Source: Syntrophaceae bacterium
GTDB lineage: Bacteria; Desulfobacterota; BSN033; UBA1163
NCBI GenBank assembly: GCA_013388635.1
Contig: JACAEX010000059.1
Location: 1 to 39,312, forward strand
Direction: 5' to 3'
DNA length: 39,312 nucleotides
Shown: in pieces, positions 34,039-34,946 of the stretch
Numbering within the stretch: the stretch's first letter is position 1
How the letters are laid out: each line of letters begins with the position of its first letter
Notes under the pieces: model-generated
What the model saw: the letters and a program-made list of their open reading frames with translations, nothing else
Told to the model about the DNA's origin: nothing
Databases searched by the model: none
Position numbers and translations under genes: made by a program

Positions 34039-34335
34039 CTAAGGTTTTCTAATCGCGGCACGAATGATCTCAACGGTTGGGACATTGGTGAGTCTTCCAG
34101 ACTCGTCTCTGAACAACCTTCAGGAAATCCCGACCGACCCCTGGGGCTGCAACTCCTTTCCGTTGATGAAGACTGAAGGTGACCCGGTCACGCCAAGAGC
34201 CATAGCCTTCTCCTCATCTATTCTGTGAAAAGTCACCTCCGCTTCAATCCTTTCGATGGCCAGGGCCCTTCTGATATTCTCCCGCAAGCCCTCTTCTGAG
34301 GCACATTCTGGAGAGAGATAACAGTCAATTCTCAT
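34039..34335 (-). CDS. thioredoxin-like protein with in-frame UGA (probable selenoprotein)
   Basis: From ATG 34335 the frame gives 71 residues, a TGA (34122-34120), then 26 further codons to TAG at 34039. The first part has thioredoxin-fold marks: C5 and C11 near the N-terminus and GVTGSPSVFINGKELQP (48-64). The part after the TGA (RLFRDESGRLTNVPTVEIIR) matches the remembered C-terminal pattern G-x-S-C-R-x-Y/F...VP..E.IR.AI of small thioredoxin-like proteins, with the TGA exactly at the conserved Cys (residue 72). A hairpin fitting a bacterial SECIS follows (34075-34118). It is therefore probably read as selenocysteine. A nonsense mutation is the alternative. GGGAGGA precedes the ATG. Confidence 0.8.
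34075..34118 (-). promoter_or_regulatory. SECIS-like hairpin directly after the UGA codon
   Basis: On the minus strand the apical stem GAGTCT/AGACTC (34104-34099 with 34095-34090) closes a GGA loop about 21 nt after the UGA. GAC/GTC and GGTTG/CAACC pairs nest outside it. Loop distance, stem length and a G at the first loop position agree with known bacterial SECIS elements. Confidence 0.7.
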
Positions 34336-34405
34336 AATCCTCCCTCATCATGACGCATCCTTGATAATATATACAAATTTCAAAAACAAGGGAAGACAAA
34401 GCACC

Positions 34406-34430: not shown

Positions 34431-34946
34431 TTACGGGTTTTCTGCTAAATAGGCATTGATAAATTTATCGACCTGGGTTTTCACAATCTGTCGGATATTG
34501 TCTGAGCTAAAATCAATGCCCCATCCACCCGTTGACCAGGTGACAGCAGATAACTTGGTGCCAGGCGTTCGGACCAGGGTGACCTCTTGATTGAGCTCCA
34601 CTCTGATATAGAAGAGATATCTCGTAATTTGCGTTTTGAGGATAGAAATGTTCATATCCACATAAAGAAAAGGGTGTCCACTTGCCTTAAGAAATTCTTC
34701 CGCTGTCAGTACATTGATACCTGCTGATTTAAGGTTTAACGCTGTATCCGTTTGGATCTGATCCTTAGTCAGCCCGCTCTTTTCTATCTGAGGATCGAGT
34801 GATCCCACGTAAAGAAAGACTCCTTGAAGACCTCGTAATGTCAGACGAGTATCCTCATTATCTTGAGCTAAAACATACGGAGTCAAGCTTAAAAACCCTG
34901 TAAGCATGACCGCCACGAAGAGACATCTTTTCTTATTCTTCACCAT
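34431..34946 (-). CDS. exported protein of unknown function
   Basis: I do not recognise the family by name. The 171-residue protein has a signal peptide (about 1-27, ending VLA). A mature part follows with LTLRGLQGVFLYVGSLDPQIE, LNVTAEEFL-like helix segments and a C-terminal helix (NIRQIVKTQVDKFINAYLAE). It has no cysteines after the signal and no membrane helix, so it should be periplasmic. The start has AGGAGAGG 5 nt upstream. It lies in the stretch bracketed by a 21-bp direct repeat, next to a truncated gene, which hints at a later arrival at this locus. Confidence 0.75.
   Translation of the reverse strand: MVKNKKRCLFVAVMLTGFLSLTPYVLAQDNEDTRLTLRGLQGVFLYVGSLDPQIEKSGLTKDQIQTDTALNLKSAGINVLTAEEFLKASGHPFLYVDMNISILKTQITRYLFYIRVELNQEVTLVRTPGTKLSAVTWSTGGWGIDFSSDNIRQIVKTQVDKFINAYLAENP

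Follow-up and report, generated by a model that had tools for sequence, protein, structure and literature searches.

The closest described relative of the protein reported here is DF ('hypothetical protein DF'), which was predicted in 2025 by deep-Sep as a selenoprotein of Desulfosediminicola flagellatus, for which Cys homologues but no other bacterial homologues with TGA were reported (PMC12013277), and which also appears in Table 1 of a 2026 inventory (PMC13188914). Other small thioredoxin-fold selenoproteins, Sec.1/Sec.2 (PF13192) and TsoX, are listed with CxU, UxC and UxxC motifs (PMC13188914), and transporter-associated selenoproteins have mostly been implicated in mercury and arsenic resistance (2026 review, PMC13188914). 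The gene analysed here lies on the minus strand of the window, by which we mean the whole 39,312-nucleotide stretch of DNA under study; a preliminary description had left the strand unstated. Its product shares with DF the GSP loop, the Sec/Cys column followed by Arg, and the length. While DF was reported as lacking TGA homologues elsewhere, we found many, so that a wider DF family with numerous Sec members replaces the single species of the original paper. The window protein is also matched by PF13192, but its Sec lies about 60 residues past a single N-terminal Cys, unlike the closely spaced motifs listed for Sec.1/Sec.2 and TsoX. It has the fold in common with the MTH895/ArsE-family thioredoxins (TIGR00412), and ArsE-type proteins are often encoded by the next gene in arsenic-type clusters of relatives; these, however, are CxxC proteins, and the window protein reaches only 17.8 bits against their cut-off of 62. 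A further likeness exists to the N-terminal, thioredoxin-like domain of actinobacterial proteins annotated as MerB or 'alkylmercury lyase family' (plasmid homologues H1, H2 and H6), with about 33-37% identity over the full length, an N-terminal Cys and S-C-R, and with a MerB fusion that recurs in our loci L059-L061. In contrast to the window protein, which stands alone, these domains have Cys for Sec and usually lie beside merR-type regulators. Identity with TsoX was rejected on a weak profile match (E 0.08), as were DsbA and MJ0307, whose profiles likewise matched weakly.

The NCBIfam profile NF049942, 'DF family (seleno)protein', aligned over practically its whole length to the window protein (E 3.3e-13, residues 5-94 on profile positions 3-96 of 96), with the Sec/Cys columns in register, but the score of 49.5 bits remained below the cut-off of 70; L066, also of the clade, scored 50.9 bits. 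The profile matched every one of the 15 proteins in the clade alignment, the best with an E of 1.2e-14. A 40-row tree places the window protein in a clade of 17 Sec rows without any Cys row (support 96/97), outside the adjoining clade of 13 Sec and 4 Cys rows (99/99), which contains the DF members scoring over the cut-off. Judged by profile and tree, the window protein is of the same kind as DF, in a separate, supported sister clade. The preliminary description had called it a probable new selenoprotein; the reading as a selenoprotein is supported, whereas 'new' holds only in part, given its proximity to the predicted DF, from which it differs as a divergent sister clade. In the literature covered, on selenoproteins of Nitrospirota and on selenoproteins linked to arsenic genes, we found no description of the clade, although an earlier mention elsewhere may exist. 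In two DF-type relatives (L027, 1501-1821, and L033, 1501-1827), TGA takes the place of Cys11 as well as standing at the Sec72 position, which makes them candidate double selenoproteins.

Translated with TGA as U from 34335 to 34039, the gene reads MRIDCYLSPECASEEGLRENIRRALAIERIEAEVTFHRIDEEKAMALGVTGSPSVFINGKELQPQGSVGIS-U-RLFRDESGRLTNVPTVEIIRAAIRKP*, with codon 72 as its sole in-frame TGA and TAG as its end (Table 1). The sequence GAGGGAGG, a strong ribosome-binding site, ends 3 nt 5' of the ATG. In the standard ORF listing the same gene is given as 34120-34335, ending after residue 71. Both the in-frame TGA within a 98-residue protein and its curtailment by ordinary annotation had been anticipated, and the remaining details of the preliminary description hold as well. 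Standard annotation cuts clade members short before their probable active residue, and searches of annotated genomes can therefore readily overlook the clade. Elsewhere in the window TGA is an ordinary stop, closing 8 of the 19 large ORFs, and there is therefore no genome-wide code change. An Rfam scan of the window at the gathering threshold returned a single tRNA only.

Table 1. Positions of the selenoprotein gene and its elements in the window.
Feature	Position	Strand	Detail	Basis
Predicted selenoprotein CDS	34039..34335	-	98 aa; ATG 34335-34333, TAG 34041-34039	TGA=U translation and full-length homologues
UGA codon 72, predicted selenocysteine codon	34120..34122	-		TGA column conserved, Cys in outer relatives
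Cys11 codon	34303..34305	-	thioredoxin active-site position, probable partner of Sec72	invariant column, U11 relatives
GSPS motif, residues 51-54	34174..34185	-	presumed cis-Pro loop of thioredoxin fold	invariant G51 S52 P53
Shine-Dalgarno-like GAGGGAGG	34339..34346	-		sequence
SECIS-like hairpin	34090..34104	-	5' arm 34104-34099 GAGUCU, loop 34098-34096 GGA, 3' arm 34095-34090 AGACUC	

The UGA is a constant feature of the clade. The 14 close members that were aligned all have it in the identical column, and it is found at the codon-72 site in every one of the 41 distinct stretches of the clade. Among 59 genomes searched, the window's own included, two homologues were found elsewhere, each with one internal TGA, and a GTDB scan yielded 16 loci, the 14 close members of which all have TGA (the titles of their records include Nitrospirae, Deltaproteobacteria and Syntrophaceae); this contig scan for relatives used the closer alignment A2, the broad alignment A1 being too diverse. 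When 395 genomes of the window's phylum were searched with a profile, the family was located in 38, most with TGA and several without. Of 396 genomes taken as a sample of the phylum to which the Nitrospirae record L061 belongs, 53 have the family; nearly all of these show a single TGA, and G423 departs from this most clearly. Both Nitrospirota and the window's phylum have members of the subfamily, with Syntrophaceae and Syntrophorhabdaceae among the close relatives. In the TGA-less sequences that were read, Cys takes its place: it occupies site 72 in four loci of the profile search (L042, L046, L049 and L051) and in the distant L071 (Sandaracinaceae), and is part of the S-C-R motif in all three actinobacterial plasmid homologues read, for example SVSCRLYRD in Streptomyces and SLSCRLYPS in Gordonia. 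The Cys of a G-x-S-C-R-like motif, which the preliminary description gave for this family, has in this way been found opposite the UGA.

Similarity also continues past the UGA to the end of the protein, as had been expected. For 14 gap-free sequences, mean pN/pS was 0.25/0.73 over codons 73-95, compared to 0.28/0.82 over codons 1-71; purifying selection is equally strong on both sides of the UGA. An in-frame UGA opposite a Cys of homologues, followed by conserved coding sequence, is the pattern by which selenoprotein genes are recognized. One could nevertheless suppose that the UGA is a true stop, yielding a 71-residue protein, and that the remainder reflects recent pseudogene formation or faulty sequencing; standard ORF finding indeed ends there, and this genome otherwise uses UGA as an ordinary stop. 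However, the same column holds UGA in dozens of species from at least two phyla and in separate assemblies, with coding constraint beyond it, and this recurrence in effect refutes termination at codon 72, which we regard as very improbable.

Downstream of the UGA, the mRNA can form a perfect 6-bp stem, GAGUCU/AGACUC, that begins 15 nt past the codon and presents a GGA loop starting 22 nt past it, close to the approximately 21 nt given in the preliminary description. Taken alone, the window hairpin stands out only slightly, with a z of -1.0 against dinucleotide shuffles in RNA folding and a P of about 0.05 when the protein is recoded synonymously. Over the TGA-bearing relatives, the synonymous-recoding null gives a combined P of about 1e-19, an inexact value given that the members are related, while four Cys members have no unusual hairpin under the same null (P 0.2 to 1). 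The recurrence of the hairpin over TGA-bearing relatives is not due to chance. Relatives with other peptides have a stem at the same distance made of different bases (for example GAGGCA/UGCCUC, GAAGCG/CGCUUC, GGAGGAC/GUUCUCC), and the loop starts with GG in all 41 distinct members. With respect to covariation, 88% of cells are paired in 21 aligned members, compared to 24-46% in slid registers; five of the seven pairs have changed on both sides, and 17 cells show two-sided changes where 6 were expected, a number reached in none of 500 shuffles. In a stricter test on 41 members with the peptide held fixed, pairing was 80.5% versus 78.2%, with 17 of 2000 shuffles as high, and slid registers gave similar double-change counts. 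We therefore base the SECIS reading on where the hairpin lies, on its loop and on its recurrence, and not on covariation alone. A hairpin right after the UGA with a G among the two leading bases of its loop, as in bacterial SECIS elements, is a weak sign for the window alone and a strong one for the family, and the element is best described as SECIS-like, with a sequence that is shaped also by the conserved peptide DESGRL.

The components needed to decode such a codon are encoded in the same genome (3.4 Mb, 95% complete), where a search for selA, selB, selC and selD had been recommended: selA (622 bits), selB (373 bits), selD (391 bits) and tRNA-Sec (81 bits) all score above their family cut-offs. 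In the genomes that carry the wider family, SelB exceeds its cut-off in 36 of 39, and draft gaps may account for the other three. The residue inserted at a UGA is not identifiable from sequence alone, which leaves room for the view that an ordinary tRNA reads it, for instance as Trp, or that it is passed by low-level read-through. Against this speak the residue of relatives at the site, which is Cys and not Trp, the full Sec machinery, and a hairpin whose placement and G-leading loop are those of bacterial SECIS elements, and we consider decoding other than as Sec highly improbable. Codon 72 almost certainly specifies selenocysteine: SelB and Sec-tRNA-Sec would read the UGA as such, aided by the hairpin 15 nt downstream. 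As a side observation, the selD match of this genome (L009, G000:C44:47699-48625) itself has one in-frame TGA, and SelD is probably a selenoprotein too.

Several lines of evidence assign a thioredoxin fold, with its alternating beta/alpha core and cis-Pro loop, to the protein. Pfam Thioredoxin_3 (PF13192) scores above its cut-off, an AlphaFold2 model built from the clade alignment has a mean pLDDT of 91.8, and the matches among solved structures are led by thioredoxins, with modest but consistent agreement (Foldseek E 2e-3, TM about 0.5; Z up to 8.7). KaiB-like rows tied with thioredoxins in the structural comparison and were put down to the shared fold. Invariant residues include Cys11, Gly51-Ser52-Pro53 and Sec72-Arg73; from general knowledge of the thioredoxin fold, we take the GSPS motif to be the cis-Pro loop. 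The protein is not a two-Cys thioredoxin of the CxxC type, since only Cys11, in the sequence CASE, is conserved. The replacement of Cys11 by a second TGA in L027 and L033 points to residues 11 and 72 as the working pair.

Hints to the function of the clade come from its gene neighbourhoods, which we counted over 37 distinct loci after removal of duplicate fetches. Detoxification genes lie beside 19 of them, a raw count without a matched random-gene control: arsR, arsP, acr3 or an ArsE-family thioredoxin gene at 13 loci, and merA, merB or merR at six. A cluster of arsP, the selenoprotein gene, an ArsE-like thioredoxin gene, arsR and acr3 recurs in L065, L068, L069, L088, L094, L098 and others, and is probably an arsenic operon that includes the selenoprotein. 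In L059, L060, L061 and L079 the reading frame of the selenoprotein runs on into a MerB-like domain; in L061 (3045-6984) this fusion follows merR and a MerA that scores above its equivalog cut-off. In the annotated MerB of a Streptomyces plasmid the Cys homologue forms the N-terminal domain. The window copy has other neighbours: directly upstream an uncharacterised 171-aa protein (34431-34946, minus strand), which begins like a signal peptide and matches no Pfam family, and an alpha/beta hydrolase in convergent orientation. Arsenic and mercury genes of the kinds tested are absent from the window. The MerB catalytic domain (PF03243), found in relatives only as a fusion partner, is absent from the window's protein, and a MerB search of the window's genome, run without a positive control, gave no match.

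Based on these results, we propose that the gene product is a 98-residue thioredoxin-fold selenoprotein with one conserved Cys, Cys11, placed where thioredoxins usually have their active site, no second Cys, and Sec72 beyond the cis-Pro loop. Cys11 and Sec72 would constitute a thiol/selenol pair, which may bind or reduce soft metal(loid) species, arsenical or mercurial, or pass electrons for their detoxification. Since the window's own neighbours include no detoxification genes, we infer the metal(loid)-handling role from the neighbourhoods and fusions of relatives, and rate its chances as roughly even; in the window's own host, where the copy stands alone, the role is likewise presumed. More specifically, but also more doubtfully, the nearly obligate-Sec subfamily might serve arsenic and mercury detoxification specifically, as a domain that provides a thiol/selenol ligand and hands on metal(loid) or electrons to a partner protein, for instance a MerB-like lyase, MerA or ArsP. 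It is quite conceivable, if somewhat short of an even chance, that the selenoprotein is instead a general thiol-disulfide or peroxide oxidoreductase, the proximity to metal genes being incidental in some lineages. The 18 of 37 clade loci that have none of the tested arsenic or mercury genes, in mostly short stretches and with the window copy among them, would fit such a function, as would L063 and L066, which adjoin a predicted membrane protein that is thioredoxin-like in part. Yet accident can hardly explain the 13 arsenic and six mercury loci together with the MerB fusions.

With metal(loid) handling as the working proposal, recognition of the gene adds a widespread, almost all-Sec clade of thioredoxin-fold proteins and links the DF family to arsenic and mercury detoxification; why metal(loid) detoxification should use selenocysteine becomes testable on a protein of only 98 residues. 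Fusion is not limited to MerB-like partners: in L057 (2217-3215), the selenoprotein is joined in frame to a methyltransferase domain that most resembles the selenoprotein MduS (285 bits, cut-off 380).
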